Part shown: one piece after another, positions 6,648 through 37,173 of the stretch | Numbering within the stretch: the first letter of the stretch is position 1 | Layout: the number at the start of each line of letters is the position of its first letter | IMG/VR virus record: IMGVR_UViG_3300033145_000051 | Location: 1 to 41,720 of that record | Length of the DNA: 41,720 nucleotides | DNA from: a virus | Reading direction: 5' to 3' (one strand) | Translations under genes and position numbers: made by a program | Notes under the pieces: generated by a model | Seen by the model: the letters and a program-made list of their open reading frames with translations, nothing else | Databases searched by the model: none | What the model was told of the DNA's origin: nothing

Positions 6648-6650
6648 AAT

Positions 6651-19469: not shown

Positions 19470-19483
19470 TTCCCGTACGGGAA
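19470..19483 (+). promoter_or_regulatory. Operator-like palindrome
   Basis: TTCCCGTACGGGAA is a perfect 14-base palindrome. A second half-site, AATTCCCG, lies at 19442-19449, and a small hairpin CGCAA-CATA-TTGCG (19448-19461) sits between them. It could be the binding site for a dimeric regulator such as the XRE protein at 23236. Confidence 0.4.
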
Positions 19484-19565
19484 TTATTCAACTTTACACC
19501 TATCGCATTTCGGGAAATTATAGGGATAAAAAGAGAGAGTGGGGGAGGGATGGGTGAGGTAATTA

Positions 19566-19574
19566 TGTTATACT
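19566..19574 (+). promoter_or_regulatory. Extended -10 promoter (candidate)
   Basis: TGT followed by TATACT (19569-19574). No good -35. Predicted start about 19581, reading into hairpins TCGAGA/TCTCGA (19587-19609) and the UUCG hairpin at 19646-19671. Confidence 0.4.
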
Positions 19575-19645
19575 AAATATGGTATATCGAGAGGTATTTT
19601 ATATCTCGACAAATTATAAAATGCGAGTTAAGCCTCTTGTGAACC

Positions 19646-19671
19646 TACGCCTCTGCTTCGGCTGGGGCGTA
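19646..19671 (+). other. UUCG-capped hairpin
   Basis: TACGCC pairs with GGCGTA, continuing through TC/GG and GC/GC with one T-T mismatch, capped by a TTCG tetraloop. It is very stable for A+T-rich DNA and has no U-run after it. Confidence 0.55.
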
Positions 19672-19706
19672 CTTAATCATATAATTGAAAAGAGCCAAGA
19701 AAAATC

Positions 19707-19735
19707 TTGACTCTAATTCAGATGTGATGTATAAT
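19707..19735 (+). promoter_or_regulatory. Sigma70-type promoter
   Basis: TTGACT at 19707-19712, a 17-base spacer and TATAAT at 19730-19735. Predicted start about 19742. The -35 overlaps the 3' arm of a hairpin (19691-19714). Confidence 0.65.
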
Positions 19736-19741
19736 TCACAC

Positions 19742-19814
19742 TACCCTAATATGTATATATTATACCAAAATCTATCAGACAACGCAATAGAGTGCCAGTA
19801 ATGGTACTTTTTTT
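19742..19814 (+). ncRNA. Possible short RNA (about 70 nt) between promoter and terminator
   Basis: A consensus promoter lies directly upstream, and an intrinsic terminator (AGTGCCA-GTAA-TGGTACT plus seven T at 19791-19814) ends it. No ORF lies inside. It could be a free small RNA or the attenuated leader of the downstream early genes. Confidence 0.5.
19791..19814 (+). terminator. Intrinsic terminator of the short RNA
   Basis: AGTGCCA (19791-19797) pairs with TGGTACT (19802-19808) with one G-T pair and a GTAA loop, followed by a T run to 19814. Confidence 0.65.
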
Positions 19815-19909
19815 ATTGGTTGAATGTAGTTTAGAAACTGGGTAGGTTTTTAGACTACATTTAGTCAATAAGACTAAGGGTAGCCACCTGAATGGCTTAC
19901 GGATTCAGG
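19815..19909 (+). other. Mutually exclusive hairpins, attenuator-like
   Basis: ATTG plus AATGTAGT (19815-19830) can pair with ACTACATT plus CAAT (19854-19869). The 3' arm can instead form TTAGTC-AATAA-GACTAA (19861-19877). Downstream, AGCCA/TGGCT (19882-19897) competes with CCTGAAT/ATTCAGG (19887-19909). Two competing pairs in a row resemble a switchable leader. Confidence 0.4.
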
Positions 19910-20067
19910 CCACACCTAAACCTAAACCAAACGCTAACGAATAAGTTTACCTCAGTCGAAACTCGACTAGGAATATAATAGGCTAATAAGCGGAGGGTAG
20001 GGAAGGGAGGATACATCCAAATACAAAAACACACACACCCTGGGGGCTATAAGGGGTAAGAGGAAAT

Positions 20068-20238
20068 ATGGTAGAAACAAGATTACTTTTAAAAAAAGCT
20101 AAGACAGGAAAAGAAATGGCAGAGATTATGTTGAAACATTTCCGTTCCCAACCCTATTATAAGAAATCCCTTGTTGATAAAAAAGTTGGCGATTTTTCAA
20201 TGTTTGATGGATTAGCTCTTGACGATGTATCCGTCTAG
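20068..20238 (+). CDS. Small hypothetical protein (56 aa)
   Basis: ATG preceded by an SD (AAGAGGAAAT). The 56-residue protein starts with a basic helix (RLLLKKAKTGKEMAEIMLKH), has an aromatic middle (FRSQPYYKK) and an acidic C terminus (LDDVSV). I do not recognise a family. It is the only convincing gene inside the 1-kb structured region and may be the first early gene or a DNA/RNA-binding control peptide. Confidence 0.5.
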   Translation: MVETRLLLKKAKTGKEMAEIMLKHFRSQPYYKKSLVDKKVGDFSMFDGLALDDVSV

Positions 20239-20254
20239 GTGTAATCTATTATGT

Positions 20255-20341
20255 GTAGATGTTTGATTCGATATGCTTGGCGGTAGGAACGAAAGTTTAA
20301 AACCCTACAAGAGTGCGAGGCATACCGCACCAGACATCTAC
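20255..20341 (+). ncRNA. Structured RNA with closing stem, GNRA hairpin and possible pseudoknot
   Basis: Outer stem GTAGATGT (20255-20262) / ACATCTAC (20334-20341). Inside is hairpin GTAGG-AAC-[GAAA]-GTT-CCTAC (20283-20308) with a GNRA tetraloop and a one-sided bulge. A second hairpin is GTGCG (20313-20317) / CGCAC (20326-20330). The loop of that hairpin contains GCATA (20320-20324), complementary to TATGC at 20272-20276, giving a pseudoknot. It is not a tRNA (no T-loop sequence or CCA). It ends exactly where the TTGACA of the next promoter begins. It does not match a riboswitch or ribozyme class that I can name. Confidence 0.55.
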
Positions 20342-20369
20342 TTGACAATTATTTTTTTTAGTCTATAAT
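20342..20369 (+). promoter_or_regulatory. Strong sigma70-type promoter of the early operon
   Basis: TTGACA at 20342-20347, a 16-base T-rich spacer and TATAAT at 20364-20369. Predicted start about 20376, 30 bases before ATG 20406. Confidence 0.75.
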
Positions 20370-20405
20370 TCTATACATAGTAGATATTTAATGAAGGGAA
20401 CAAAA

Positions 20406-23430: not shown

Positions 23431-23506
23431 ACTAATAACATTAGGATTTATGTTAGGTATGATAGGTATTTTTGGGTTTCTTGTACTTATGAAATATGGA
23501 CTATGA
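23423..23506 (+). CDS. Tiny membrane peptide (27 aa)
   Basis: ATG with SD (CTGGAGG) overlapping the end of the XRE gene, and its stop overlaps the next ATG (ATGA). The product is one hydrophobic helix (LITLGFMLGMIGIFGFLVLM). It may be a real peptide or mainly a translational coupler into the glycosylation cassette. Confidence 0.45.
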   Translation: MIKLITLGFMLGMIGIFGFLVLMKYGL

Positions 23507-24390
23507 AAATATATATTGGAGGAATTAACAACATAAAAGGTAAAATTGGTGGTGGGCATTCGTTCACTAGGAACTTTTTGGCAACCTGTAGTGATGTTGT
23601 AGACACTTTAGAGGAGTGCGATGTTTTCTTTATAACAGGAGCAACTCTAGTGCCTAGAAGTGAGTTTGAGAGGGCTATAAGTCTAGGTAAGAAGATAGCC
23701 TTTAGGGTTGATGGTGTTCCAGAGGATTGGCGTAATAGAGGTACAGGGTGGAGTAGATTGCGTGATTACGCTAAAAGGTCGGATTTAGTTATCTATCAAT
23801 CTGATTTTATTAGCAGAACAATAGGTAGACTGCTAGGTGTTCTAGGATACACAATCTACAACGGAATTAACACCTCAGTATTTAAAGTTGATGGGGAGAA
23901 GTTACCTAAGTTTGGTGAACCATCCCTTTTATACTGTAACTACAGGAAGGGTGAACATAATAAAAGAGTTGAAGAAGCTATTGAGAGATTTAGGTACTAT
24001 AAGATTGATAATCCTGAAGCTACAATGACTTTTGTTGGAAACTTTAGCAAACAACAGTATTTGTGGGATAAGGTTAATTGGGAGTTTGGAATGTTAGATT
24101 TAGAGAGAAATAAAGATTGGCAGTATCTAGGAATAGTATCAGATAGGGAGAAACTTGCTACTATAATGAGAAGTTGTGATTATATAGCTTTCCCTTCATT
24201 TGCTGACCCTTGCCCTAATACTTTAATTGAGGCCCTAGCTTGTGGATGTAAACCGCTTTGGATTAACGATTATGGTGGTCAACATGATGTAGTTAAACTT
24301 TGGGAAGTAGGTTTTGATTGGTCAAAGGAAAGAATGGTTAAGCAGTATTTAGATTTATTTAAGGGGGTGCTTTTGAATGAAAGTAAGTAA
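23503..24390 (+). CDS. GT-B glycosyltransferase (GT4-like)
   Basis: Predicted protein of 295 residues; first gene of the sugar cassette. It has an N-terminal sugar-acceptor half with FRVDGVPEDW and a C-terminal nucleotide-sugar half with the GT4 signature region FPSFADPCPNTLIEALACGC, where the second Glu contacts the donor. NGINTSVF between the domains is typical of family 4. It transfers a sugar from a nucleotide-sugar donor; the acceptor is unknown. It overlaps the tiny membrane peptide gene by four bases. Confidence 0.82.
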   Translation: MKIYIGGINNIKGKIGGGHSFTRNFLATCSDVVDTLEECDVFFITGATLVPRSEFERAISLGKKIAFRVDGVPEDWRNRGTGWSRLRDYAKRSDLVIYQSDFISRTIGRLLGVLGYTIYNGINTSVFKVDGEKLPKFGEPSLLYCNYRKGEHNKRVEEAIERFRYYKIDNPEATMTFVGNFSKQQYLWDKVNWEFGMLDLERNKDWQYLGIVSDREKLATIMRSCDYIAFPSFADPCPNTLIEALACGCKPLWINDYGGQHDVVKLWEVGFDWSKERMVKQYLDLFKGVLLNESK

Positions 24391-24526
24391 CAGAAAACAT
24401 GATTTACCCTTGTTGGAGTTGTTAATATATTATATAATTAACATATTCACTTTCGGCTCGTTTTATTTATTTAAGATAGTTATTAAAAAAGCCATACTGG
24501 AGGCTAAAGATGATACCACTAATTAA
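24377..24526 (+). CDS. Small membrane protein (49 aa)
   Basis: ATG with SD (AAGGGGGTG) overlapping the end of the glycosyltransferase gene; the end overlaps the aminotransferase start. One long hydrophobic segment (LLELLIYYIINIFTFGSFYL) and a basic C terminus. It could anchor a glycosylation complex at the membrane or serve as a coupling ORF. No family recognised. Confidence 0.45.
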   Translation: MKVSNRKHDLPLLELLIYYIINIFTFGSFYLFKIVIKKAILEAKDDTTN

Positions 24527-25502
24527 ACTTCCTCTTAATGAGGATGATGCCCAAGCGGTAGCAGATGTAGTAAGGTCTAAAATGATTGGGCTTGGCAATC
24601 TTGTATTTGAATTTGAGGAGAAACTAGCAAAGTTTGCTGGTAGTAAGTATGCTGTTGCAGTTGATAGTTGTACTTCAGCGTTGTTCTTATCACTAGATTA
24701 CTTTCATAGAATTACCCAATGGACAATGGAAAGACAGACTGGCGTTGTAGGTATTCCGTCAATGACAGTTCCTTTGGTCGCTAATGCCATTCAAGAAGCG
24801 GGTTTGGTTGCTGTATTTACAGATGATGTAGATTGGGTAGGTACTCATTATAATTTGTATGGAACTAATATCTGGGATTCAGCACATGAGCTTTATAGAG
24901 GTTGTTTTAAGCAGTATCCTAAAGATGCTGTTGTTTGTCTATCCTTTTATCCTACTAAACCTCTTGGCTCTGCTGATGGTGGTGCAATACTTACTAATGA
25001 TAAGAAGATGTATGAGTGGTTAAAGAGTGCTTCTACTTATGGTAGGAATCAAGGTAAGAAGTATAGGGATAGTTGGGATTATGAAGTTATTATGATTGGG
25101 TATAAAAGACATTATACAAATCTTCAGGCGGCTTTGTGTATGAGCCAGTTAGAAAGATTAGACGAGACTAACGCAGATAAAGAAGTAGTTAGAAATTTCT
25201 ACAATAAATCATTCAGATACAATAATGAGAGTGATTATTTATACAGAATTTGGGTTAAAGATAGAAATAAATTTATTAAATCTATGAAGGATAAAGGTAT
25301 AGCTTGTGGTGTACATTATAAACCAATGCACATGATGGAGGCATACGAAGATACTCCTGTAATTGGGAGTAAAGAGAAGTTAGAGAAAGCATATAAGCAT
25401 ACAGTTAGTATTCCGTTTTATGCTGATATGACCCATGAGGATATTCTTAATGTTACTAATGCTGTAATTTCTTCAGGTCAACTAATGTTTAATTATGAGT
25501 AA
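24510..25502 (+). CDS. DegT/DnrJ/EryC1/StrS-family sugar aminotransferase
   Basis: Predicted protein of 330 residues. These PLP enzymes add an amino group to a keto sugar on a nucleotide carrier (3- or 4-amino sugars). The family hallmarks are visible: IKLPLNEDDAQAV and GLGNLVFEFEEKLAKFAG at the N terminus, VDSCTSALFLSL, WDSAH with the PLP-contacting D123, and the PLP lysine K150 in SFYPTKPLGSADGG. It implies an amino sugar in the glycan. It overlaps the next methyltransferase by eight bases. Confidence 0.88.
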   Translation: MIPLIKLPLNEDDAQAVADVVRSKMIGLGNLVFEFEEKLAKFAGSKYAVAVDSCTSALFLSLDYFHRITQWTMERQTGVVGIPSMTVPLVANAIQEAGLVAVFTDDVDWVGTHYNLYGTNIWDSAHELYRGCFKQYPKDAVVCLSFYPTKPLGSADGGAILTNDKKMYEWLKSASTYGRNQGKKYRDSWDYEVIMIGYKRHYTNLQAALCMSQLERLDETNADKEVVRNFYNKSFRYNNESDYLYRIWVKDRNKFIKSMKDKGIACGVHYKPMHMMEAYEDTPVIGSKEKLEKAYKHTVSIPFYADMTHEDILNVTNAVISSGQLMFNYE

Positions 25503-26088
25503 AAGCAGAGAACAATTAAATATATGGCTAAAGAAAATAGATGTAACAGGAAAAACTGTATTAGATATGGGTGCAGGTAGACCGAGAGCTTGGTTGTTTC
25601 CCATTGAATTAGATGGAAGCAAGGGTAGTCCTAAAATAAGTGGTACGCCTAAAGAATATAAGACCGCCGATATAGATGAGCAATGGGGGTGTGATTTCCA
25701 AGTTGATTTAAACAAACCTTTCATAGAGGAACAGGTAGAGGAAATGAAGGCTGATTACGTTTTCTGTATGGAAACAATGGAACATATTTGGAATCCTATT
25801 CAAACGATAAAAAGTTTATCACTTATTACAAATGAAAAGCTATTTATATCAGTACCATTCATATATCCTATACATGATATTCACGATTATCTGAGATATA
25901 CACTTCAGTATTTCCAGCGTGTACTCCCTAGATACGGTTTCAAAACCGTTAATATTAAGAGAAGAACAAGTGAAACTATACGAGATTGGTATAAGACTGA
26001 AGGTATGAGAATGAGTAAAGTAACCTTGAAGCAGGGTTATGGAGATAATATAAGGGATATTGGGTATATGGTGGAGGCTATAAAATGA
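25495..26088 (+). CDS. SAM-dependent methyltransferase (class I)
   Basis: Predicted protein of 197 residues. Motif I TVLDMGAGRPRAW binds SAM and CMETMEHIWNP resembles the post-IV region of small-molecule methyltransferases. It lies between the aminotransferase and another methyltransferase, so a sugar O- or N-methyltransferase is the simplest guess. It overlaps both neighbours by a few bases. Confidence 0.75.
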   Translation: MSKSREQLNIWLKKIDVTGKTVLDMGAGRPRAWLFPIELDGSKGSPKISGTPKEYKTADIDEQWGCDFQVDLNKPFIEEQVEEMKADYVFCMETMEHIWNPIQTIKSLSLITNEKLFISVPFIYPIHDIHDYLRYTLQYFQRVLPRYGFKTVNIKRRTSETIRDWYKTEGMRMSKVTLKQGYGDNIRDIGYMVEAIK

Positions 26089-26546
26089 CTGCTATAAGTG
26101 ATTATAGAAAAACTTTAAAAGACTTGATTAAGGAATATGATGTAAAAGATGTATTAGAGATAGGGGTGGAGAAAGGTATATCTACCAAAGTATTTTGTGA
26201 TAATGGTTGTCATGTAGTTGGGGTTGATGTAGAACAAACATCTTTTGAACATGATAACTTCTACTTTTATAAAGGTGATTCTAACAGATATTTAGTTGGA
26301 AATGATGGTATATATGACCTTATATTTCTTGATGGGTTTTACACTTATGATAGGTTAGAGAAAGATGTTCCTTTATGTTGGGAAGCATTAAAAGAGGGTG
26401 GGATACTTGTCTTTAACGAGTATATAGACTTCGCTAATCATAGGGGTAGTGAGGTTGAAAGGTTTGTACATAATTGGGCTAATGTAAATATGCGACCATT
26501 TACTGTATATCCTTTAAGGAACGGCTTTGCCGTATTTTTGAAATGA
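26085..26546 (+). CDS. SAM-dependent methyltransferase (class I, short)
   Basis: Predicted protein of 153 residues. VLEIGVEKGISTKVF is motif I, VVGVDVEQ motif II and YDLIFLDGFYTYDRLEKD the acidic loop seen in Methyltransf_24-type enzymes, followed by EALKEGGILVFNEY. Likely sugar O-methyltransferase by context. ATGA overlaps at both ends show tight coupling. Confidence 0.75.
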   Translation: MTAISDYRKTLKDLIKEYDVKDVLEIGVEKGISTKVFCDNGCHVVGVDVEQTSFEHDNFYFYKGDSNRYLVGNDGIYDLIFLDGFYTYDRLEKDVPLCWEALKEGGILVFNEYIDFANHRGSEVERFVHNWANVNMRPFTVYPLRNGFAVFLK

Positions 26547-27139
26547 TAGCAATAGTAACTGCTCATTCAGATAGAGATTTAAAAGAACAGATGTTTGAAA
26601 GTCTGGAGAAGAACACAGATAATAGACTCTTTAGACTATTTACTATGAATGGTATGAGGGATGGGGAAATGAGAACTGTTAATAGGTTGGTAAAGAATAT
26701 TGATGTTGAATGGGATTACCTTGTTAGGGCGGATGACGATTTATTCTTCAACGAGGGGTGGCTAGAAGCCATGCTGACAGCTTTGGCTAATAATCCTGAT
26801 GTAAAGTTACTTGGAGGGTGTAGGTATCCTACTCATAAAATACTGGAAGAACGAGAGGACATTTATATTATGGACATTTGTCCTGGCAATCATTGGATGC
26901 TAACTAGGGAAACTTGGGATAAGTATGGGCCTTTCTATGAGGACTTCACTGATATAGCTGAGGATGTAAGGTTCTGTGAAAAGTTGCAGAAAGACGGATT
27001 CAAAGTAGCTTGTCTAAAAAACCCTACATTTGTTGTTCATTGTGGTATTAGGAATACCAGAGGAAAGGGTAGAAGCCCTTATGTAGAAGGCTACAGTCAA
27101 GCGTTGGCTGATGCTACAGGGTGTGAAACTAATCTATGA
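26543..27139 (+). CDS. GT-A (GT2-like) glycosyltransferase
   Basis: Predicted protein of 198 residues with an N-terminal nucleotide-binding beta-alpha-beta unit (IAIVTAHSDRDLKEQMFESL), metal-binding RADDDLFF (D64-D66), and the acceptor-side NHWMLTRETWDKYG and EDVRFCEKLQKDG (likely catalytic base region ED). Short for GT2 but complete in the core. It overlaps both neighbours by four bases. Confidence 0.8.
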   Translation: MIAIVTAHSDRDLKEQMFESLEKNTDNRLFRLFTMNGMRDGEMRTVNRLVKNIDVEWDYLVRADDDLFFNEGWLEAMLTALANNPDVKLLGGCRYPTHKILEEREDIYIMDICPGNHWMLTRETWDKYGPFYEDFTDIAEDVRFCEKLQKDGFKVACLKNPTFVVHCGIRNTRGKGRSPYVEGYSQALADATGCETNL

Positions 27140-28017
27140 GAATAGCATACATAAACAATCATGAAGGAAAGCATAGAATAGATAAATTAGATGTAGGATT
27201 GAAGAAGCTAGGGCATAAGTTTGTTAGTGTAGGAGATGCTCAAGTTGTTTGGGTAGAGCATTTAGATGGGGAAGCAGAGGAGTATTCAAAGAAGAAATTA
27301 AATTGCCCTTTGGTTTTAAGATTGTCGGCAATGGAGTTATATAAGGGAGGCGTGAAAAGTATTAAGTGGAGTAATGTTTCTGCTCTGGTAGTTCATGGGG
27401 AACATTTAAAAGACTATTTTATAAAAGAGATAGGTGGGTTGCATAAAGATAAGATTCATGTAATACCTTTATGTATAGATACTGATAAGTTCAAGCTAAA
27501 AAGAGGGGAACAGAATAAGAAGGTAGCAATAGTTTCAGAAGTTCATTGGAGAAAGGGTGCAATGATAATTCCTCTAGTTATAGAGAACGCACCCGAAGGC
27601 TATCATTTCTATCATGTAGGGCCGATAATAAATAGAGATGCTATGAATTATATAAACTGGAGATTGACAAAAGTTGGGCTTCTAGGGTTCTATCACTACG
27701 AGGAAGTGAGTGATAATGTGAATAGGTGGTTAGAAGATAAGTCCTACTTTTTACATTGTTCAGGAACAGAGGGTATGCCCAGAGCAGTAGGGGAAGCAAT
27801 GAGTAAGGGGCTTAAACCTGCTATATTTAATTATAGAGGTGCAGAAGAACAATGGCCAAATGCGTTTGTATGGGATTATCTTGATGAGGTTGAGGGTATT
27901 CTTAATGATGAGTGTGAGCCTAAGAAGTATAGACAGTTTATGTTGGACAATTACTCTATAGATGTAATCGCTAGAAAGGTTGACAAATTATGCAAATCTT
28001 TGATGGAAGCAAAATAG
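27136..28017 (+). CDS. GT-B glycosyltransferase (GT4-like)
   Basis: Predicted protein of 293 residues. IPLCIDTDKFK marks the domain linker, VSEVHWRKGAM the start of the donor domain, and CSGTEGMPRAVGEAMSKGLK the E-x7-E donor-binding region. The N-terminal half is reduced compared with full-length family members. It overlaps the following kinase-methyltransferase gene by 28 bases. Confidence 0.8.
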   Translation: MRIAYINNHEGKHRIDKLDVGLKKLGHKFVSVGDAQVVWVEHLDGEAEEYSKKKLNCPLVLRLSAMELYKGGVKSIKWSNVSALVVHGEHLKDYFIKEIGGLHKDKIHVIPLCIDTDKFKLKRGEQNKKVAIVSEVHWRKGAMIIPLVIENAPEGYHFYHVGPIINRDAMNYINWRLTKVGLLGFYHYEEVSDNVNRWLEDKSYFLHCSGTEGMPRAVGEAMSKGLKPAIFNYRGAEEQWPNAFVWDYLDEVEGILNDECEPKKYRQFMLDNYSIDVIARKVDKLCKSLMEAK

Positions 28018-29141
28018 AAGAAGCGTTTGAAAAAGGTAGAAACTTTGTAGAGCCTGATAATAGAGGCAAGACCTGTTTTGTATATAGGGGTAGTTTACTG
28101 CACGAAGTCGCAAAGTATTATGGTAGAGAGCCTAGTGATTTGTGTTTAAAGATATTCTTCACTCCATTGACAGGGGAGTTAGACAGTTATTATTGGGGCA
28201 GTAAGTGGAGAATATACTCAGAGGAAAGGACAGAAGAAATAGGTAGGATAAGTAAATTAACGGAAGCGGTAACAATTCAGAACTGGTTGTGGATGCAAGG
28301 GAAGGCCCCTCGTGTTTACAGTATATTTGCTGTAAATAGGGCTGGAAACCTCTATCCTGCAATGCTTACAGAGTATCTAAAAGGTGATGTTTATCATGGA
28401 GATGTACCTGCTAGAGTTGAAGAAATAGCGAAGAAGGATTTAATAGATTTCTGTATAAGACACGCACATAAAGAATTGGTAGGCCCTCATGATTTTATAG
28501 ATGGGAAGTTAATTGATCCACAAGGATTCGGGTTTACAGAGAATACCCATGACGCAGTTAAGAGTTATATAAGTAGAGTCGGAAAGTATGGTAAGACTCA
28601 TTACCAAGACATAGATGCGATAGGACTTACAGGTAAACCTAGAAATACAGGTAAACGAATTAAGGCTATGAAGCTAGATGAGATAGATTTTGAAGATAAA
28701 GATGTACTAGATGTGGGGTGTAATTCAGGAGCTTTCTGTATGTATGCTTCTAGCAGAGGAGCTAGGAGAGTGCTAGGTTTAGATTTACTAGACCAAGTTA
28801 AGGCAGCACAAACTTTGGCTTTCTATCTTGGGTATCATAATGTTGATTATAAATCTGTTGATTTAACTACCAAAGGTATGCCTTTTATGGGTGTGCTTGA
28901 ATTTGATATAACACTCTTTTTATCTATGAATATTCATGTGGGGTTTCCTAAATGGATTCCTGATATAACTAAAGAACTCATGGTATTTGAAGAAAATGCC
29001 AAGCAATCAAAGTTTAAACCTGAATATTGGAAAGAGGAATTAAGTAAGTGTTTTGATTCAGTTGAACAAATAGGAACTACTAATGACCAGAACCCCGAAT
29101 ACCATAAGCCTATCTTTTGGTGTAGAAAGGTGCTAGAATAA
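27990..29141 (+). CDS. Kinase-like + SAM methyltransferase fusion
   Basis: Predicted protein of 383 residues. The N-terminal half looks like a sugar/lipopolysaccharide kinase fold (FVYRGSLLHEVAKYYG, MLTEYLKGDVYHGDV, and HAHKELVGPHDFIDGKLIDP, which fits the catalytic and metal loops). From about residue 235 there is a class I methyltransferase (DVLDVGCNSGAFCMYASSRG, VLGLDLLDQ). This fusion may phosphorylate and methylate a sugar, as in capping of polysaccharide ends. It is followed ten bases later by a two-domain glycosyltransferase. Confidence 0.68.
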   Translation: MQIFDGSKIEEAFEKGRNFVEPDNRGKTCFVYRGSLLHEVAKYYGREPSDLCLKIFFTPLTGELDSYYWGSKWRIYSEERTEEIGRISKLTEAVTIQNWLWMQGKAPRVYSIFAVNRAGNLYPAMLTEYLKGDVYHGDVPARVEEIAKKDLIDFCIRHAHKELVGPHDFIDGKLIDPQGFGFTENTHDAVKSYISRVGKYGKTHYQDIDAIGLTGKPRNTGKRIKAMKLDEIDFEDKDVLDVGCNSGAFCMYASSRGARRVLGLDLLDQVKAAQTLAFYLGYHNVDYKSVDLTTKGMPFMGVLEFDITLFLSMNIHVGFPKWIPDITKELMVFEENAKQSKFKPEYWKEELSKCFDSVEQIGTTNDQNPEYHKPIFWCRKVLE

Positions 29142-29151
29142 TTATATTGCT
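29131..29151 (+). promoter_or_regulatory. Extended -10-like site before GT4-GT2 gene (weak)
   Basis: TGC-TAGAAT (29131-29139) spans the upstream stop. A start seven bases later would leave only about six bases before ATG 29152, which has no close SD. This resembles the arrangement at 3793-3808. Confidence 0.3.
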
Positions 29152-30729
29152 ATGAAGGTACTTATCATTTGTGATAAAAACAATTCTGCCATAGATCGAT
29201 TAGCACAAGTAATTAAGAAGTATACCCCTCATTTAGATATTAAGATTTTACCATTCCACCCTAAAAGACCTTCTGCCGACCAAGTTGCAGATGTTGTTGA
29301 GGCGTGGGATTCGGCTGATATTGTTCATGTTTCCTATTGGAAGTCTGGTGAGAAGTTTAAAGAGATGTTCCCTGAGAAGTGGGGAGAAAAGAGAAAGATA
29401 CTCTGGCATCACAACCCTTATGATATAGATAAGAAGGATTGGCAAGAAGATTATAAAAAGATTGTTGTTCATAACTCTACTATTCACTCAATGATTCCTT
29501 ATGCAAGACTAATTCCTCAATGTATTGATATTCACTATTGGAAGTTCAATGATAATTTTACAGATAGTACAACTGTAAGTATGGTCATTGGAAGGATTGA
29601 AGGTAAGAAAGGTGCAAGGGAAGTAGCTCAGGCTTGTAAGGAACTAGGTTATAAATTTGTTCTTGTTGGGAGAATTTCTAAAAGAGATTACTTTAATCAG
29701 ATAATGGAGATTAACCCTGATACAGAATTTAGGGAGAATATTTCTGATGAGGAACTTAGGGAAACTTATTATGAATCTGCTGTCCATGTTTGTAATAGTG
29801 TCGATAATTTTGAATCTGGCACTATGCCCATTCTTGAGGCTATGTCGTGTGGAACTCCCGTACTTACTAGAAATATTGGTCATGTCCCCGATTTGTACAA
29901 CGGGGATAATATGGTTGTTCGCAATGGTGATACTTCTGATGTTGAGGACTTAAAGGCAGAACTCAAAGAAATGATGGAGAATAGAGATTATTTAGAAAAG
30001 ATTAGACAAAAAGCGTGGGAAACAGTTAAAAATAGACAACCTGAGAAAATGGCTAGAATGTTTAGTACTTTATATTATCAGGTGTGTGGTGGAAAAGACC
30101 ATCTTGTTTCTATAATAGTTCCTACATTTGACAGACCTAAAGTTTTAATACAATGCTTGGCTCAATTAGTAGCACAAGATTATCCTAATATAGAAATTAT
30201 TGTCGCAGATAGTGGTAACAAGAGTTCAGAGAAGGTAGTTAAGACATTTAAGGAGAAAACCGATATACCTTTTAAGTATATTAGATTTGAAAATCATGAC
30301 GAGTATACGTTAGCAAAGGCAAGAAATCTAGGAATTATAGAAGCAGAAGGTGATTTTATAATGTTTTGTGATGAGAGAATGGGTGTAGCTTTAAACGCTG
30401 TATCTAATTTTATAAATAGTTATGATGCAGAAGGTATATGGTTATATGGAATGAAGGATGATGTAACTAAAGGATTTGTTGAGAACTTTAGTTTTGTTAG
30501 GAAATCTATCCTTGTAAGATATGGAATGTTCAACGAGAGAATAGATTGCTATGGTGGTATGAGTCAAGATGTTAGAACAAGATATAGTAGGAATGGTATT
30601 ACTTTCCAACTTATCCCTGAAGTACAAGCTAAAAGCCTTGCTAAATCAAGTAATAGATTTGGCAGAAAGCCCGAAAAGGTACGGGCTAAACTGCTGTTAT
30701 GGAAATTATATGGCACTATTAGGTGGTAG
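29152..30729 (+). CDS. Bifunctional glycosyltransferase (GT4 + GT2)
   Basis: Predicted protein of 525 residues. Residues 1-310 form a GT-B enzyme (IPQCIDIHYWKF linker, VIGRIEGKKGAREVAQACKE, ESGTMPILEAMSCGTPVL donor site). From about residue 316 a GT-A domain begins (VSIIVPTFDRPKVLIQC, VADSGNKSSEK, EGDFIMFCDERMG in the metal-site position). Two transferases in one chain suggest successive sugar additions. The end overlaps a small zinc-knuckle ORF. Confidence 0.82.
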   Translation: MKVLIICDKNNSAIDRLAQVIKKYTPHLDIKILPFHPKRPSADQVADVVEAWDSADIVHVSYWKSGEKFKEMFPEKWGEKRKILWHHNPYDIDKKDWQEDYKKIVVHNSTIHSMIPYARLIPQCIDIHYWKFNDNFTDSTTVSMVIGRIEGKKGAREVAQACKELGYKFVLVGRISKRDYFNQIMEINPDTEFRENISDEELRETYYESAVHVCNSVDNFESGTMPILEAMSCGTPVLTRNIGHVPDLYNGDNMVVRNGDTSDVEDLKAELKEMMENRDYLEKIRQKAWETVKNRQPEKMARMFSTLYYQVCGGKDHLVSIIVPTFDRPKVLIQCLAQLVAQDYPNIEIIVADSGNKSSEKVVKTFKEKTDIPFKYIRFENHDEYTLAKARNLGIIEAEGDFIMFCDERMGVALNAVSNFINSYDAEGIWLYGMKDDVTKGFVENFSFVRKSILVRYGMFNERIDCYGGMSQDVRTRYSRNGITFQLIPEVQAKSLAKSSNRFGRKPEKVRAKLLLWKLYGTIRW

Positions 30730-30862
30730 TTCTACCAAAAGAAAAGTCTTTACCATGTGTAAGGTAGAGAAAAGAATACATACTTTCAAAGATGACGACC
30801 AAAAGATATACGGAGATAAGCGTCAGAGATGTAAGTATTGTGGCGAACTTTTGAAGAAATAA
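30710..30862 (+). CDS. Small zinc-knuckle protein (about 50 aa)
   Basis: A frame that ends at 30862 with RQRCKYCGELLKK, a CxxC knuckle; an upstream MCKVEKRIHTFKDDD supplies another Cys/His. Starts at ATG 30710 (50 residues, overlapping the upstream gene by 20) or ATG 30755 (35 residues) are both possible; neither has a strong SD. An even longer frame upstream is a shadow of the glycosyltransferase. Unknown role. Confidence 0.45.
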   Translation: MALLGGSSTKRKVFTMCKVEKRIHTFKDDDQKIYGDKRQRCKYCGELLKK

Positions 30863-31885
30863 ATGACAAAAAAATATAAGAAGAAACTTAAAGTGGTGGG
30901 CGTAGCATGGCATACGGGACACCAGGCAGAACTATTTAAACTCCCTTTTATAGAGAGTTATGATTTGGTTACTAATCCATATAGGAAGTGGGCAACTGTT
31001 CACAGACCCCTCTCTGATAAATGTAATATGATTCCTTTTTATACTCCTGGTAAATATGATTTGGCTATTCTCCATGTGGATCAACAGTCCATTTATAATC
31101 CTGAAAAAGGAGATAGAATTTCAAAAGGCAGAATATATAAAGAGTTAAACGAAACTATAACAGACATTCCAAAGGTAGTTATAAATCACATGACTCCGTT
31201 TCATGATAAATATACTTCTGAACAGACTGTTTCAATAATAAAGAATATGATTGGTGATAACCACATGGTTGTTAATTCTCATGATGCGAGGAAACAATGG
31301 GGATTCGGACATACCATTATTCATGGAATGGAAGTAGACGAGTGGTGGGATTTACCCAAAGAACCTAGATGTATAATATCTCTATCTCCTGGTGGAATGG
31401 AGAATGCTTATAGGAGAATCTTTCCAAGAACAGTTATTAGGTTATTAAAAGAAATGGGTGTACCTATTATATGGATTGGTGTTGATAAGAAGTTTAAGAA
31501 TTTTGATGAGTATAGGGATTTTATAGGTAGGAGTCTTGTATATTTTCACCCTGCTTGGCAGTCACCTATGCCTCGTGCTAGAACTGAGGCTATGTTATCA
31601 GGCTGTTGTATTGTAACAACTCCTTATCAAGATGCTGATACATTTATAATAGATGGTGTTAATGGCTTTCTAACAAGCAAAGCTAGAATAAAAGACCCTA
31701 GAGTTATGGACAGTCCTGAATATACAGCTAATCTAATTAAAAGATTGATTATAGACGAACCAGATTTAGCTGTTAAAATTGGACAAGAAGGTAAAAAGTT
31801 TGCTCGTAATAAATTTAATAAGGAGAATTTTACTAAGCAATGGGAAGAATATCTCATTGGATTAGGAATATTAGAATATGCCTGA
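30863..31885 (+). CDS. GT-B glycosyltransferase (GT4-like)
   Basis: Predicted protein of 340 residues. The N-terminal half contains VVGVAWHTGHQAELFKLPF and INHMTPFHDKY; the donor half has SLSPGGMENAYRRIFPRTV, FHPAWQSPMPRARTEAMLSG (GT4 donor-binding region) and DTFIIDGVNGFL. The acceptor is unknown. ATG directly follows the upstream TAA. It overlaps the next small gene by eight bases. Confidence 0.82.
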   Translation: MTKKYKKKLKVVGVAWHTGHQAELFKLPFIESYDLVTNPYRKWATVHRPLSDKCNMIPFYTPGKYDLAILHVDQQSIYNPEKGDRISKGRIYKELNETITDIPKVVINHMTPFHDKYTSEQTVSIIKNMIGDNHMVVNSHDARKQWGFGHTIIHGMEVDEWWDLPKEPRCIISLSPGGMENAYRRIFPRTVIRLLKEMGVPIIWIGVDKKFKNFDEYRDFIGRSLVYFHPAWQSPMPRARTEAMLSGCCIVTTPYQDADTFIIDGVNGFLTSKARIKDPRVMDSPEYTANLIKRLIIDEPDLAVKIGQEGKKFARNKFNKENFTKQWEEYLIGLGILEYA

Positions 31886-32135
31886 AATAGAAGAAATCCT
31901 AAATGATAAGGAAATAGAGGCTAAAAAGTTACTAAAGATGCGAACCTCTGCGTTGCAATCTAAAATTGGTGCTGAGGTAGAAAAAGATGTTAGGGAGTAT
32001 ATCAAATCCAAAGAGTTAGATATAGAACCCTCTGATACTAATGATACAAAATTACTCAATCGTGAGAAACAGATAGAGTTTGAAACAATAATTATAGATA
32101 TTATTGATAAAAGACTTAAAAAGTTAAATGACTGA
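31878..32135 (+). CDS. Small coiled-coil protein (85 aa)
   Basis: Predicted protein of 85 residues, nearly all helix and very charged (EEILNDKEIEAKKLLKMRTS, NREKQIEFETIIIDIIDKRL). It overlaps both neighbours. It resembles the 53-residue protein encoded next, so the two may be partners or diverged paralogues. No family recognised. Confidence 0.55.
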   Translation: MPEIEEILNDKEIEAKKLLKMRTSALQSKIGAEVEKDVREYIKSKELDIEPSDTNDTKLLNREKQIEFETIIIDIIDKRLKKLND

Positions 32136-32289
32136 TAAAGAGAGAAAGTTACTAAAAGTGTACGCTAGGAAGATAAAGACTGCTATAGGAGAAAGAGTAA
32201 AAGGGGATATATATAAAATGATTGAAAGACAAATTGATTCTGTAAGACTTAAAGTTATAGATGAGATTGTGAAAGAAGAAATGAAATGA
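32128..32289 (+). CDS. Small helical protein (53 aa)
   Basis: ATG within the overlap AAATGACTGA. The 53-residue product is basic and helical (KERKLLKVYARKIKTAIGER, IERQIDSVRLKVIDEIVKEE). It overlaps the next glycosyltransferase ATG by four bases. Similar in style to the preceding protein. Confidence 0.55.
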   Translation: MTDKERKLLKVYARKIKTAIGERVKGDIYKMIERQIDSVRLKVIDEIVKEEMK

Positions 32290-33140
32290 GAATTGGATTT
32301 GCTACTTTTGAGAAGCAGTCTAATAGACCCAAAGGAACCATAGGCTCTACAAGAATTAGAGCTAGATGGTTATATGATTCGTGGGAAGGGGCAGAGGAAT
32401 ATAAGATCGGTAAAGAATACGATGTAATGATATTCCAAAAGGTATATTGGGAAGCGATGATGACTCAATTCAAAGGGATAAAGATAATGGATTTATGCGA
32501 CCCAGATTGGACAGGTGGTAGAGATGTAATGAAATATTGTGCTTTGGCTGATGCTGTTGTTACCTCAACTCAGGCTTTGGCAGATTATATAAAGAGATTC
32601 GTGACTGTTCCAGTTCTATGTATACCTGATAGAATTGAAATGTCTGAACACGAGCCTTACATGAAGAAAACACATAACGATAAAGTGGAAAGTATTGTTT
32701 GGTGTGGGTATCTACATAATACAGCCTATTTAGATAATACATTAGACGAGCTTATTAGAAGGAATTTATCTTTGACAGTTATATCTAATAAGAATTACTA
32801 CCCTCCAAAGGGAAAGGAACTGCCTGTTACTTATGTAAAATATACTTATCCTGGCGTTCATGCAGAGATGTCAAGACACGATTTAGCACTATTGCCAGGA
32901 GATAGAGGTAAGGTAAACTATAGAGGACAATTCAAATCAAACAATAAAGTATTAACAGCGTGGGCGTTAGGTATGCCTGTAGTTCAGTTCCCCGAAGATT
33001 TTGATAGACTAATAACAAAGGAACAAAGAGAAATAGAAGTTAAGAAGAACTTAAAAGATATAAATGATAACTGGTTAGTTGAGAGGTCAGTACAAGAGTA
33101 TAAGGATTTAATAAATGAAATATCTAATAACAGGAAGTAA
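32286..33140 (+). CDS. GT-B glycosyltransferase-like protein
   Basis: Predicted protein of 284 residues. The N terminus GFATFEKQSNRPKGTIGSTR and RARWLYDSW, the middle ADAVVTSTQALADYIKRF, and the C-terminal LTAWALGMPVVQFPED fit GT4-like enzymes, although the E-x7-E donor motif is replaced (HDLALLPGD, SNNKVLTAWALG). It may be a divergent or reduced transferase. It overlaps the RmlD-like gene by 26 bases. Confidence 0.68.
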   Translation: MRIGFATFEKQSNRPKGTIGSTRIRARWLYDSWEGAEEYKIGKEYDVMIFQKVYWEAMMTQFKGIKIMDLCDPDWTGGRDVMKYCALADAVVTSTQALADYIKRFVTVPVLCIPDRIEMSEHEPYMKKTHNDKVESIVWCGYLHNTAYLDNTLDELIRRNLSLTVISNKNYYPPKGKELPVTYVKYTYPGVHAEMSRHDLALLPGDRGKVNYRGQFKSNNKVLTAWALGMPVVQFPEDFDRLITKEQREIEVKKNLKDINDNWLVERSVQEYKDLINEISNNRK

Positions 33141-33918
33141 AGGACAACTAGGCACTCACTTTAGAAAAGTTCTAGGAGTGGAAGGCTCTGATGTGGACAT
33201 AATGGATGTAGAAGCTCTTGATAAAGAATTTAATAGGATTAAACCAGATGTTGTTATAAATTGTGCCTCATATAATGATGTGCAAGGAGCAGAGAAAAAC
33301 CCTGAAGGTTGTAAAGTGAACTCTTTAGGGGTATTAAATATGACGAAAGTATGTAAGAAGTATAATTGTAATTTAGTACATTTCAGTACCAACCTTGTGT
33401 TTGATGGTAAAGATGCACCTTATAAAGAAGATGCTCAAACTAATCCAATAAATGCGTATGGAGAGAGTAAGTTAAGTGGTGATTTATTCGCTTTAGCATT
33501 TAAGTCTTTGATAATAAGAACATCTTGGTTATATGGAGACGGTGAAAGAAACTTCATATACAGGTTTATGAAAAGATACAAGGAAACAGGAAAGGCTATG
33601 GGTACAACAGATGATATAGCAACTCCTACATCTACTAGGTTAGTGGTTGAATTGACTTTAAAGGCTATAGATAAGGGGTTAAAGGGGATTTACAATATTG
33701 TTAATTCTGGTAGTGCTTCAAGATTTGATTGGGCAAAAGAATTGGTAGATGATGTAGAACCGGTACAAGTATCATTATTCAATTTGGTTGCAGACACTCC
33801 TTTAAATACTACACTAGATAATTCAAAAATAAGTAAAGCTCTAGGTGTAGAAATACCACATTGGAGAGAGGAATTAAAGAATGAAATCACAAAGAACAAA
33901 AGACATAAAAAAACTTGA
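33115..33918 (+). CDS. RmlD-like dTDP-4-dehydrorhamnose reductase
   Basis: Predicted protein of 267 residues, close to the usual family length. It is an extended SDR enzyme with GSKGQLG nucleotide-binding loop (G7/G10/G13), VHFSTNLVFDGKDAPYKED, the catalytic YGESKLSGD (Y-x3-K), and TSWLYGDGERNFI near the active site, all characteristic of RmlD, which makes dTDP-L-rhamnose. Other 4-keto sugar reductases share this fold. RmlA, B and C are not in the window, so the host must supply the precursor. It overlaps the HNH gene by 38 bases. Confidence 0.85.
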   Translation: MKYLITGSKGQLGTHFRKVLGVEGSDVDIMDVEALDKEFNRIKPDVVINCASYNDVQGAEKNPEGCKVNSLGVLNMTKVCKKYNCNLVHFSTNLVFDGKDAPYKEDAQTNPINAYGESKLSGDLFALAFKSLIIRTSWLYGDGERNFIYRFMKRYKETGKAMGTTDDIATPTSTRLVVELTLKAIDKGLKGIYNIVNSGSASRFDWAKELVDDVEPVQVSLFNLVADTPLNTTLDNSKISKALGVEIPHWREELKNEITKNKRHKKT

Positions 33919-34264
33919 CGACCTTTGTAAGAAGATAGTTAGAAAAAGAGACAAGATGCGTTGTCAACATTGTGGAAAGCGTGTGGATAAGTCAAATGCT
34001 CATTGTAGTCATGTAATCCCTAAGAGTAAGGGATACGCTTTAAGGTGGGAGTTAAAGAATCTAAAGTTGCTCTGTTTTCATTGCCATATCAACTGGTGGC
34101 ACAAGAATATAGCAGAAGCATGGATGTGGTTTCAATATGAGTTTCCTTACAGGGCTGATTATTTGATGGAACATAAGGATGATTTGATTTTTAGTAAGGA
34201 CAGGAAAGAGTTTATGAGTAATAAATTAGAGGAATTGGAGGAAGAATGGAAGAAATTAAAATAA
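33881..34264 (+). CDS. NinG/HNH-like nuclease-type protein
   Basis: Predicted protein of 127 residues with CQHCGKRVDKS zinc knuckle, AHCSHVIPKSKG (the H-N-H first motif), WELKNLKLLCFHCHINWWHK (second zinc knuckle), and a coiled C terminus. This matches the NinG/Rap and HNH family layout (Holliday-junction or nick processing). It sits between the sugar cassette and the packaging genes. It could be a packaging-linked HNH endonuclease or a recombination factor. Confidence 0.7.
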   Translation: MKSQRTKDIKKLDDLCKKIVRKRDKMRCQHCGKRVDKSNAHCSHVIPKSKGYALRWELKNLKLLCFHCHINWWHKNIAEAWMWFQYEFPYRADYLMEHKDDLIFSKDRKEFMSNKLEELEEEWKKLK

Positions 34265-34417: not shown

Positions 34418-34843
34418 ATGAGTGAACAAACTTCAAAACAAGTTTATGATAAACCTAGAAATCCTACTGGAAAGGGTGGGTTTAAAGACAATCCACAGAA
34501 TATTAGTCGTGATGGTAGGCCTAGAAATGAACAAAGATTTGGTTACTGGTTGCAGTTTTTTAAAAATCTAACTAACGAACAATTTATAAACTATACTAAT
34601 GACAAACCCGAAGCTCAGATGTTTATGGCTGAGTCTATCGCTTATGAACGGGTAAAGAAGTCAAAGAAGAACCTACCAGAATACAAGGAAGTTGCTGATA
34701 GAACAGAAGGTAGAGCCAAGCAGACATTTGAACACGAAGGTCAAATTGTAGAAAATGTTATTGTAAGGATTATAAAAGATGCAACTGAACTTGAACTCAA
34801 CGGTAGTGTTCCAAAAGACCTACCAGAGCCAAAAGAGAATTAA
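34418..34843 (+). CDS. Small-terminase-like / DUF5681-like DNA-binding protein
   Basis: Predicted protein of 141 residues. The N terminus (GKGGFKDNPQNISRDGRPR) resembles the basic glycine/proline-rich start of DUF5681-type phage proteins that stand in for small terminase subunits. The middle is helical (FGYWLQFFKNLTNEQFINYT, EYKEVADRTEGRAKQTFEHE). It lies immediately before the terminase region. Its last 65 bases overlap, in another frame, a remnant of the terL start (34779-34841). Confidence 0.6.
   Translation: MSEQTSKQVYDKPRNPTGKGGFKDNPQNISRDGRPRNEQRFGYWLQFFKNLTNEQFINYTNDKPEAQMFMAESIAYERVKKSKKNLPEYKEVADRTEGRAKQTFEHEGQIVENVIVRIIKDATELELNGSVPKDLPEPKEN
34779..34841 (+). pseudogene. Duplicated terL N-terminus remnant upstream of GIY-YIG gene
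   Basis: In the frame starting at ATG 34779 the codons encode MQLNLNSTVVFQKTYQSQKR, closely matching MELNLNSTVVFQKNYVCNKR at the real terL start (35432). Of 15 shared residues after the start, only five keep the same codon. It now reads in frame into the GIY-YIG gene. It is probably the original terL start, separated by endonuclease-gene insertion. Confidence 0.7.
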
Positions 34844-34844
34844 A

Positions 34845-35441
34845 ATGGTTATATATCAGATAAGGAGTAAGATAAATAATAAAGTTTATATAGGAAGTGC
34901 TATCAAGTGGTCGGATAGAAGGGCAAAGCATTTACGAGATTTAAGGGGAAATAAACACCATTCTAAACATTTACAGAATCACTATAATAAGTATGGTGAA
35001 AGTGATTTAATATTTGAGGTACTTGAAGAAGTAAGTAACTGCAATTTATTAGAGAGAGAACAATACTGGTTAGATAAGGTAAGACCTTTTGAAAAGACTA
35101 GGGGATTTAATATATGTAAAGATGCTAGAAGTAGAAAAGGATTAAAGAGTAGTGAAGCAACTAAAAGAAGGATAAGTGTCGCCAAAAAGGGACAGGGAGT
35201 TGGTAGAAAGAGAAGTGTAGAAACTAGGGAGAAGATAGCAAAGTCGGTATCTGGTAAAAGAAATTGGAATTATGGTAGAGATAGTGAGTTAAATGTGAGT
35301 GCCAAATTGAACTGGTTGCTAGTGGATAAAATGAGGGATTTGTATAAAAGTGGCAATTACAGTTATAAAGATTTGACTGAGGTATTTGATATAAGTAAAT
35401 CCCAAGTTGCCAGAGTAATAAATAGGCAATCGTGGAGCTAA
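34845..35441 (+). CDS. GIY-YIG homing endonuclease inserted before terL
   Basis: From ATG 34845 the protein has 198 residues. The N-terminal GIY-YIG nuclease domain has VIYQIRSKINNKVYIGS, an arginine-rich helix (RRAKHLRDLR) and LLEREQYWLD with the catalytic Glu. C-terminal parts are NUMOD3-like DNA-binding motifs (SRKGLKSSEATKRRIS, KRSVETREKIAKSVSGK) and a final HTH (YKDLTEVFDISKSQVARVI). The frame is open upstream to 34779, so a fusion with the terL remnant could also be made. It stops ten bases inside the terL start, leaving no room for a self-splicing intron core. Confidence 0.82.
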   Translation: MVIYQIRSKINNKVYIGSAIKWSDRRAKHLRDLRGNKHHSKHLQNHYNKYGESDLIFEVLEEVSNCNLLEREQYWLDKVRPFEKTRGFNICKDARSRKGLKSSEATKRRISVAKKGQGVGRKRSVETREKIAKSVSGKRNWNYGRDSELNVSAKLNWLLVDKMRDLYKSGNYSYKDLTEVFDISKSQVARVINRQSWS

Positions 35442-36586
35442 ATCTTAATTCCACAGTAGTATTCCAGAAGAACTATGTATGTAATAAGCGTATTTGCGTT
35501 AACCAGGGAGGCACAGGAAGCTCTAAAACATACTCTCTAGCACAGCTTATGATAGTGAAGGCTATGCAAGTAACTGGCAAGACTTTCTCTATAGTTAGAA
35601 ATAATATGCCTTCGCTTCGTGCTACAGCTATGAGAGACTTCTTCACTATTCTAAGAGAGCAGGGCTTATATACAGAAGATAACCACAGTAAGACAACAAA
35701 TATCTATACCCTACATGGTAATGAGATAGAGTTCTTTGGTCTTGACCAACCACAGAAGGTTAGAAGTAGAAGGCGAGACTACCTGTGGATGAATGAGAGT
35801 AATGAGTTCACATTAGAAGCCTTTAGACAGCTTAATATGCGTACTAATACTCAGGTGTTCATGGACTTTAACCCTTCGGATGAGTTCCATTGGATTTATG
35901 ACCATGTATTAACGAGAGATGATTGCGAACTTATCATATCCACATATCTTGATAATCCTTTCTTGCCTAGAGAAGTAGTAAAAGAGATTGAGAGATTCAA
36001 GGCATTAGACTTAAACTATTGGAATATTTATGGTCTTGGAATGAGAGGCGTAAGACAAGCTAGAATATTCACCAACTATGAATTGATAGATAAGATGCCT
36101 GAAGGTGGGGAGAGGATGTATGGATTAGACTTCGGGTTTAATCACCCTACAGTATTAACGGAGGTTGTAATGAAGGATGATGATATTTATGTCAATGAGC
36201 TTATATATGAGAGTCACATGACCACACCTGAACTTATAGCCAAGTTTAAAGATTTAGGAGTATCACAAGATGATTATATGTACCCTGATTCAGAAGACCC
36301 CTCAAGGATAAAAGAGCTAGAAGATGCTGGTTATAATGTAATAGCTGCTACTAAGGGTAAAGATAGTGTTAGAGCAGGTATAAATGAGATAAAGAGTAGA
36401 AAGCTGTATGTTACCAAGTCCTCTGCTAATGGTATAAAAGAACTACAGACATACTCGTGGAAGGTTAAAGGTGATATGATATTAGATGAGCCAGTAAAGG
36501 TTAGGGATGACTTCGTAGATTCATTTAGGTATGCGGTACATTCGTTTTTGGATGATGAGAATAAGTTAGGATTTTATATAGGATGA
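35432..36586 (+). CDS. terL: Terminase large subunit (PBSX/Terminase_3-like)
   Basis: Predicted protein of 384 residues from GTG 35432. The ATPase domain has Walker A-like GGTGSSKT (26-33) and a Walker B-region DYLWMNESNE (116-125). The nuclease domain has YGLDFGFNHP, YPDSEDPSRIKEL and DDFVDSFRYA, supplying acidic metal ligands. It packages DNA through the portal. The start region has no strong SD and lies at the end of the GIY-YIG gene; its first 21 codons look recoded relative to the upstream remnant. The end overlaps the methyltransferase by four bases. Confidence 0.9.
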   Translation: MELNLNSTVVFQKNYVCNKRICVNQGGTGSSKTYSLAQLMIVKAMQVTGKTFSIVRNNMPSLRATAMRDFFTILREQGLYTEDNHSKTTNIYTLHGNEIEFFGLDQPQKVRSRRRDYLWMNESNEFTLEAFRQLNMRTNTQVFMDFNPSDEFHWIYDHVLTRDDCELIISTYLDNPFLPREVVKEIERFKALDLNYWNIYGLGMRGVRQARIFTNYELIDKMPEGGERMYGLDFGFNHPTVLTEVVMKDDDIYVNELIYESHMTTPELIAKFKDLGVSQDDYMYPDSEDPSRIKELEDAGYNVIAATKGKDSVRAGINEIKSRKLYVTKSSANGIKELQTYSWKVKGDMILDEPVKVRDDFVDSFRYAVHSFLDDENKLGFYIG

Positions 36587-37173
36587 AAATATTAAACTTG
36601 TATGCAGGAATAGGCGGGAATAGGAAGTTATGGAAAGGGGATGTTACTGCTGTTGAGACGAGAGAGGATATAGCGAATGTGTATAAAGACCATTTCCCTG
36701 ATGATGAAGTAATAATTGCAGACGCACATCAGTATTTACTTGAGAATTTTGATAAGTTTGACTTCATTTGGAGTAGCCCACCTTGTCAAAGCCACTCAAG
36801 TTTCAGACAGAATATATGTGTAAGGTACAGGGGAACTAAACCAATGTACCCTGATATGAGGTTATGGCAGGAAATACTATTTCTACAAGCCAACCATAAG
36901 GGTAAATGGGTAGTAGAGAATGTTAAACCCTACTACAAACCACTAATAGAACCGACTGCTGTATTGCAGAGACATTACTTTTGGGCAAACTTTGATATAC
37001 CAGAAAAAGAATTCAAGAAGGATAAGATAAGAACAGCACAAATACCTCAATTACAAAAGCAACATGGTTTTAATCTAGATAATTACAAGATTAGTGGTAA
37101 GAGACAGGTGTTAAGAAATTGTGTATTGCCAGAGTTAGGTAAGCACATACTCGATTCCTCTATTGAACATTGA
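36583..37173 (+). CDS. Compact DNA cytosine-C5 methyltransferase
   Basis: Predicted protein of 196 residues, about half to two-thirds of the usual length. Motif I ILNLYAGIGGNRKLW, motif IV SSPPCQSHS with catalytic C68, motif VI VVENVKPYY and a motif IX-X-like RNCVLPELGKHIL are all present, so the small size comes from a minimal target-recognition region. It likely modifies phage DNA against host restriction. No restriction partner is adjacent. Located between terL and the portal. Confidence 0.85.
   Translation: MKILNLYAGIGGNRKLWKGDVTAVETREDIANVYKDHFPDDEVIIADAHQYLLENFDKFDFIWSSPPCQSHSSFRQNICVRYRGTKPMYPDMRLWQEILFLQANHKGKWVVENVKPYYKPLIEPTAVLQRHYFWANFDIPEKEFKKDKIRTAQIPQLQKQHGFNLDNYKISGKRQVLRNCVLPELGKHILDSSIEH

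Follow-up and report, generated by a model that had tools for sequence, protein, structure and literature searches.

A collagen-like fibre gene and a sugar cassette in one phage genome

We analysed IMG/VR virus record IMGVR_UViG_3300033145_000051 as one stretch of 41,720 bases (the window), which has a terminal repeat of 41 nucleotides (positions 1-41 are identical to 41680-41720) and carries all of its major genes on the + strand. The window encodes terminase, portal, protease, capsid, tail tube and tape measure proteins together with fibre-like genes. Two regions are considered here, a module that begins with a collagen-like fibre gene spanning the ends of the record and a cassette of sugar-related genes at 23503-33918. 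A first-pass annotation had noted the cassette and the collagen-like fibre, and this observation was confirmed. The fibre module also contains, outside the coordinates of that annotation and absent from its gene list, a gene for a putative protein glycosyltransferase (GT) at 3808-5223, called the 3808 GT below. The module comprises the following features:

40448-41720, + strand: collagen-like fibre gene, 5′ part (Pfam Collagen, E 6e-26)
1-865, + strand: collagen-like fibre gene, 3′ part (C-terminal domain 91% identical in a relative)
867-2711, + strand: structural-module protein, an alternative candidate GT substrate (last ~35 amino acids conserved in relatives)
2713-3795, + strand: LamG/concanavalin-A-like virion protein (Pfam Laminin_G_3, E 5e-19; PHROG virion structural protein)
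3808-5223, + strand: putative GT2-TPR protein glycosyltransferase fused to an S-adenosylmethionine (SAM) methyltransferase, proposed as the initiating O-glycosyltransferase (GmaR, E 2e-26; SunS fold)

The fibre gene had been described as running from 40448 across the join to 865. Positions 40448-41679 and 1-865 are indeed in frame via the 41-nucleotide repeat and encode 698 amino acids. The join is backed independently, because a syntenic locus in a relative (L003, 4182-5864) has the gene uninterrupted, with the same N-terminus, C-terminal domain and flanking genes. Since the joining repeat sits within the collagen repeats, the exact repeat number is uncertain. In runs of at least five triplets the fibre contains 91 GXY triplets, including 36 GPT and 26 GAT, and Thr occupies the Y position in 76 of the 91, in agreement with the earlier statement that this position is mostly Thr.

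The fibre module encodes a putative GmaR/SunS-type glycosyltransferase

The 3808 GT combines a GT2 domain (Pfam, E 7e-20), TPR matches and a methyltransferase domain, and its nearest solved relatives by sequence are GmaR, a flagellin O-GlcNAc transferase, SunS and ThuS. GmaR transfers GlcNAc to flagellin, and the authors of that work propose that its TPR region recognizes flagellin (PMC9638930). Comparison with the SunS family in NCBIfam gave an E value of 9e-16; the score of 57.7 bits against TIGR04195, for which the curated cut-off is 350, indicates that the enzyme is related to SunS and is not a SunS orthologue. Residues 1-280 were modelled by AlphaFold with a predicted local distance difference test score (pLDDT) mostly above 90, and the fused methyltransferase half was modelled poorly. 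A structure search with residues 1-266 of the model returned SunS at the top (Z 24.0, root-mean-square deviation 2.4 Å over 264 residues), with the superposition extending across both the GT and TPR parts. ThuS followed (Z 22.5), and other glycosyltransferases and TPR proteins scored Z 17.8 or less. The DxD motif (Asp81/Asp83) was invariant across 30 homologues. A profile search of genome contigs with the GT2-TPR alignment gave one match, which was weak. Judged by its sequence and its model, the protein is a putative protein glycosyltransferase of the GmaR/SunS GT2-TPR type.

The glycosyltransferase gene is kept in the structural module of relatives

A contig of 25,487 bp (G001, which contains locus L003) is about 80% identical to the window and syntenic with it from 35714 through the ends to 21540. 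It encodes a GT2-TPR protein (L003 7171-8052) that is 70% identical to the 3808 GT and has no methyltransferase domain, together with a fibre in which Thr occupies 66 of 70 Y positions and GPT is largely replaced by GAT, which is now dominant. A third relative, the short contig L006, has the glycosyltransferase gene (1121-2002) and capsid genes. The gene thus lies within the structural module in the window, in L003 and in L006.

In the protein encoded at 867-2711, conservation in relatives is limited to Ser/Thr-containing C-terminal repeats, VKTIND..IASVKT..DAS. The same tail is shared with the proteins encoded at L003 5866-7158 and L006 434-1108, the three proteins being otherwise unrelated. 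The genes for the L003 and L006 proteins directly precede the GT2-TPR gene, and in the window the GT gene is not a direct neighbour. The tail, which was not seen in other loci and is confined to this lineage, may be a GT target or a docking or attachment tag.

GT2-TPR glycosyltransferases are enriched near phage collagens

We compared a collagen sample, consisting of 120 IMG/VR stretches among the matches listed for a DNA pattern of five consecutive G[PA]T triplets, with a control sample of 87 stretches drawn from IMG/VR by random 15-mer. A GT2-TPR profile hidden Markov model, built solely from an independent GT scan, recognized 18 of the 120 collagen loci and none of the 87 controls (Fisher p 6e-5). 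When the GT-positive loci, and only these, were collapsed, p rose to 0.0014 with 12 clusters and to 0.018 with 7; the last value is the fairer one because the loci are partly related. Pfam GT2 (PF00535) was present in 16 of 50 collagen records compared to 4 of 50 random records (p 0.005), in a comparison of mostly longer records that were hand-picked from each set rather than drawn at random. Within loci having a collagen open reading frame, every one of the 20 GTs (GT2 and GT4) among the matches listed lay on the collagen strand. The median GT-collagen distance was 748 nucleotides, with a modest permutation p of 0.018 as a proximity control within collagen loci. The Thr fraction at Y was 0.72 in collagens with such a GT compared to 0.61 in those without (p 0.006), in a sample that the G[PA]T selection biases toward Thr-rich collagens.

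Two loci illustrate the pairing. In L042, the GT2-TPR gene and a GPT-collagen gene overlap by 4 nucleotides, and a second gene upstream appears GT-like, judged by eye only. In L093, an unrelated stretch of 10.6 kb, genes for DegT, GT2, dehydratase-like, transketolase-like, epimerase-like and GT2-TPR proteins run directly into a pair of collagen genes, the whole series being tightly packed on a single strand.

Collagen-like open reading frames of more than 2,700 amino acids were seen near GT2-TPR genes in L009 and L109, the former within a 470-kb virus record.

A quarter of the genome is a sugar cassette

The cassette takes up 10.4 of 41.7 kb, about one quarter of the genome, and consists of the following genes:

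23503-24390, + strand: GT4 glycosyltransferase (Pfam, E 4e-12)
24510-25502, + strand: DegT/PseC-like sugar aminotransferase (Pfam DegT, 4e-46; PDB 2fn6, E 3e-24; pyridoxal phosphate-lysine motif SFYPTK)
25495-26088, + strand: probable SAM methyltransferase, weak (Pfam 3e-4, below cut-off; motif VLDMGAG)
26085-26546, + strand: Methyltransf_24 methyltransferase (Pfam, E 1e-9)
26543-27139, + strand: GT2/GT21-like glycosyltransferase (Pfam, E 1e-5; RADDD motif)
27136-28017, + strand: GT4-like protein, weak (Pfam 6e-4, below cut-off; PHROG glycosyltransferase, 1e-4)
27990-29141, + strand: protein with a C-terminal SAM methyltransferase (FtsJ, 2e-5; motif VLDVGCNSG)
29152-30729, + strand: bifunctional GT4-GT2 glycosyltransferase (Pfam, E 1e-18 and 8e-18)
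30863-31885, + strand: GT4-like protein, weak (Pfam, E 3e-5, below cut-off)
32286-33140, + strand: GT4-like protein, very weak (Pfam 3e-3, below cut-off; PHROG glycosyltransferase, 5e-5)
33115-33918, + strand: RmlD-like nucleoside diphosphate-sugar reductase (Pfam, 9e-61; PDB 1vl0, E 3e-35; GxxGxxG and YxxxK motifs)

Pfam and NCBIfam bore out the gene content given by the first-pass annotation, namely six GT-like genes, of which one has a pair of GT domains, genes for a DegT aminotransferase and an RmlD-like reductase, and three methyltransferase genes, with several matches being weak: three of the six GTs (23503, 26543 and 29152) passed the Pfam cut-off and the remaining three are weak. The aminotransferase also matched NCBIfam PseC (E 1e-43, under the curated cut-off). 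One of the methyltransferases had been described as fused to a kinase-like domain; the methyltransferase held, and the kinase-like N-terminus of the 27990-29141 protein was dropped, as it had no family match and its single-sequence structure model had a pLDDT of 34. The statement that nearly all genes overlap was slightly too strong, the overlapping junctions being 7 of 11.

No membrane segments were predicted in any cassette protein, and a search for a Wzx-type flippase gave no PF01943 match (GtrA itself was not looked for by family); both results fit a cytoplasmic glycosylation. RmlA, RmlB and RmlC were not found in the phage: PF00483 and PF00908 had no match, and the only PF16363 match was the RmlD gene itself, so that RmlD alone represents the RmlABCD pathway of dTDP-rhamnose. 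The 4-keto-6-deoxy sugars would therefore have to be host-derived, and the BclA-like rhamnose/anthrose glycan that had been proposed is demoted for the same reason.

Codon usage of the cassette resembled that of the backbone (r 0.92), as did the GC content at third codon positions, which gives a recent acquisition of the cassette no support. A near-DNA search with the cassette across the phage collection gave no match. On the circular map, the cassette lies about 6.5 kb from the fibre start and 18 kb from the 3808 GT.

A proposed model of virion glycosylation and its alternatives

Glycosylation of a virion protein is supported by the presence of a GmaR/SunS-type GT in the fibre module, by the GT-fibre pair in a relative and by the enrichment of such GTs near GXT-collagens. 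It is the best reading of the 3808 GT, with the collagen a leading candidate substrate. The earlier proposal that the phage glycosylates its own collagen fibre keeps this much; action of the cassette on the fibre is not supported, because no relative covers the cassette region.

We give roughly even chances to a fuller model in which the phage would O-glycosylate its virion within the cytoplasm of the host, with the Thr-rich collagen-like fibre as the probable target, the 3808 GT starting the glycan and the cassette extending it. The TPR of the 3808 GT would serve as the substrate-binding domain and its GT2 as the catalytic domain, attaching a first sugar to Ser/Thr residues, either in the still unfolded fibre chain or in a neighbouring structural protein. 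The soluble cassette enzymes would then extend and decorate this sugar with chains made by the GT4 and GT2 enzymes, an amino sugar via DegT, a 6-deoxy sugar completed by RmlD and methyl groups, the activated 4-keto-6-deoxy sugars being tapped from the host. Such a glycan might affect adsorption, stability or shielding of the virion. The chemistry of the fibre is compatible with Thr glycosylation, which is known to stabilise collagen (Bann et al. 2000, cited in PMC3368898). More tentatively, and with the odds somewhat against it, tailed phages might widely O-glycosylate Thr of GXT-fibres by GmaR/SunS-type GTs, some of them adding a methylated amino-sugar cassette, which would stabilise the helix without hydroxyproline and mask or tune the virion.

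Several points weigh against virion glycosylation with the fibre as substrate. In about 85% of the collagen loci among the matches listed no such GT is visible, and Thr at Y is frequent (0.61) also in phage collagens without a GT, in the Thr-biased sample. A GT2-TPR protein 51% identical to the 3808 GT is encoded at L008 2911-3777, among structural-type genes that include no collagen, which shows that this enzyme type is not bound to collagen alone. Any glycan on the virion is a prediction from gene content, and the E. coli prophage collagen EPclA, produced as a recombinant protein, was found unglycosylated (PMC3368898). With its conserved Ser/Thr tail, the 867-2711 protein is just as close a candidate for the substrate. 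The G001 contig covers the fibre and GT part and ends short of the cassette region, and therefore speaks neither for nor against a cassette-fibre link.

The main rival is host-surface modification, in which the cassette would remodel a surface glycan (O-chain, teichoic acid or capsule), excluding other phages and having nothing to do with the fibre; we consider this somewhat unlikely, and even then the 3808 GT may act separately on the virion. It is the usual interpretation of phage GT clusters, including those near tail-fibre or collagen genes, as in pelagimyophages (PMC7029224). The distance of several kb between cassette and fibre module also fits it, and surface polysaccharides typically involve enzymes of the DegT, RmlD and GT4 families. 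However, the cassette proteins lack predicted membrane segments and a flippase match, whereas serotype conversion of the Gtr type uses a membrane flippase/GtrA and a membrane GT. This difference is not decisive, since host pathways could supply the membrane and flippase steps. Modification by the 3808 GT of the VKTIND..IASVKT tail, or of capsid or tail tube, rather than of collagen, is likewise on the unlikely side. In L003 and L006 the tail is the sole conserved part of the protein encoded beside the GT. Glycans at the C-termini of capsid and tail-tube subunits of Mycobacterium phages are reported (cited in PMC12619734). On the other hand, the tail is restricted to one lineage, whereas GT2-TPR with collagen recurs in unrelated phages, and in the window the tail protein does not directly adjoin the GT.

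A coincidental link between cassette and collagen, as two variable-gene regions in one phage, seems improbable. DegT was found in just 2 of 50 collagen/GT-bearing records, so that the aminotransferase part is rare, and scanning IMG/VR with single-sequence patterns yielded no relative of RmlD, DegT or the 27990 protein. Against coincidence, L093 unites a sugar cassette, GT2-TPR and collagens in one packed run on the same strand, and the codon usage of the cassette is like that of the backbone. Very improbable, in our view, is that the enzymes glycosylate or hypermodify phage DNA, although this role is frequently assigned to phage GTs (e.g. PMC12619734) and a C5 DNA-methylase-like gene is present at 36583-37173. 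There was no match to the thymidylate synthase/dCMP hydroxymethylase family (PF00303), the 3808 GT resembles protein GTs, and simple glucosylation needs no methyl or amino-sugar enzymes.

Comparison with known glycosylation systems

Of the known systems, flagellin glycosylation comes closest in layout. Like the 3808 GT, GmaR of Listeria joins a GT2 domain to TPR (PMC9638930), although the former carries a methyltransferase and GmaR an antirepressor. The initiating GT gene of C. difficile comes right after fliC and is followed by extension and sugar-methylation genes; such fliC-CD0240-type loci resemble this phage in that the GT gene lies in the module of a filament-like substrate (PMC4441256). 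Unlike the flagellin systems, the present one is phage-borne, and its candidate substrate is a collagen-like fibre. The peptide S-glycosyltransferases SunS and ThuS superpose on the 3808 GT over the whole GT and TPR fold, but SunS modifies a small secreted peptide, whereas the partner of the 3808 GT would be the virion module. SunS itself originates from prophage SPbeta.

Virion glycosylation in phages and a viral collagen GT have both already been reported. Mycobacteriophage-encoded GTs reportedly glycosylate capsid and tail tube (Freeman et al. 2023, cited in PMC12619734); these are virion proteins as here, but other ones, and we know of no collagen, aminotransferase or large cassette in that system. 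In mimivirus, L230 modifies viral collagen, and the fibril glycans contain 2-O-methyl-viosamine (PMC9614988). The likeness would be that the virus itself encodes the glycosylation of its collagen-like protein and that a methylated amino sugar occurs in virion glycans; however, L230 glucosylates hydroxylysine, the virus is a eukaryotic giant virus and the enzymes are unrelated. Bacillus BclA has in common with the phage its GXT collagen repeats and, at the level of enzyme families, aminotransferase, methyltransferase and RmlD-type enzymes, but the phage lacks RmlA, RmlB and RmlC, and there is no evidence of rhamnose or anthrose. In the open-access literature we found no account of a glycosylated tailed-phage collagen, a negative that argues only weakly for real absence.

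Phage GT clusters are usually read as serving DNA protection or a change of the host surface. The recurrent pair of GT2-TPR and GXT-collagen suggests a third role, namely sugar-coated virion fibres. If true, this would bear on the stability of phage collagens without hydroxyproline, on adsorption and evasion of recognition, and on how much of the 'O-antigen' annotation in phages is wrong; it would also offer candidate enzymes for the glycosylation of recombinant collagen.

Other features of the genome

The C5 DNA-methylase-like gene at 36583-37173 lies between terminase and portal. Its product has 196 amino acids compared to 324 positions in the family model, matches the N-terminal third of that model only and is possibly truncated. 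Genes for HNH (33881-34264) and GIY-YIG/NUMOD3 (34779-35441) endonucleases of the homing type lie between cassette and terminase. At 19328-20390, about 1 kb has no listed open reading frame of at least 60 amino acids and the GC skew is locally flat; within it, 19564-19817 shares 79% identity with the relative. The region is a possible origin or packaging site. In another phage (L268, MW202524.1, Podoviridae), the gene names beta4glucosyltransferase, gtA and a yqgM-like name occur at 1656-7307, soon after the major capsid gene, and these GT-type genes are another candidate virion glycosylation module.

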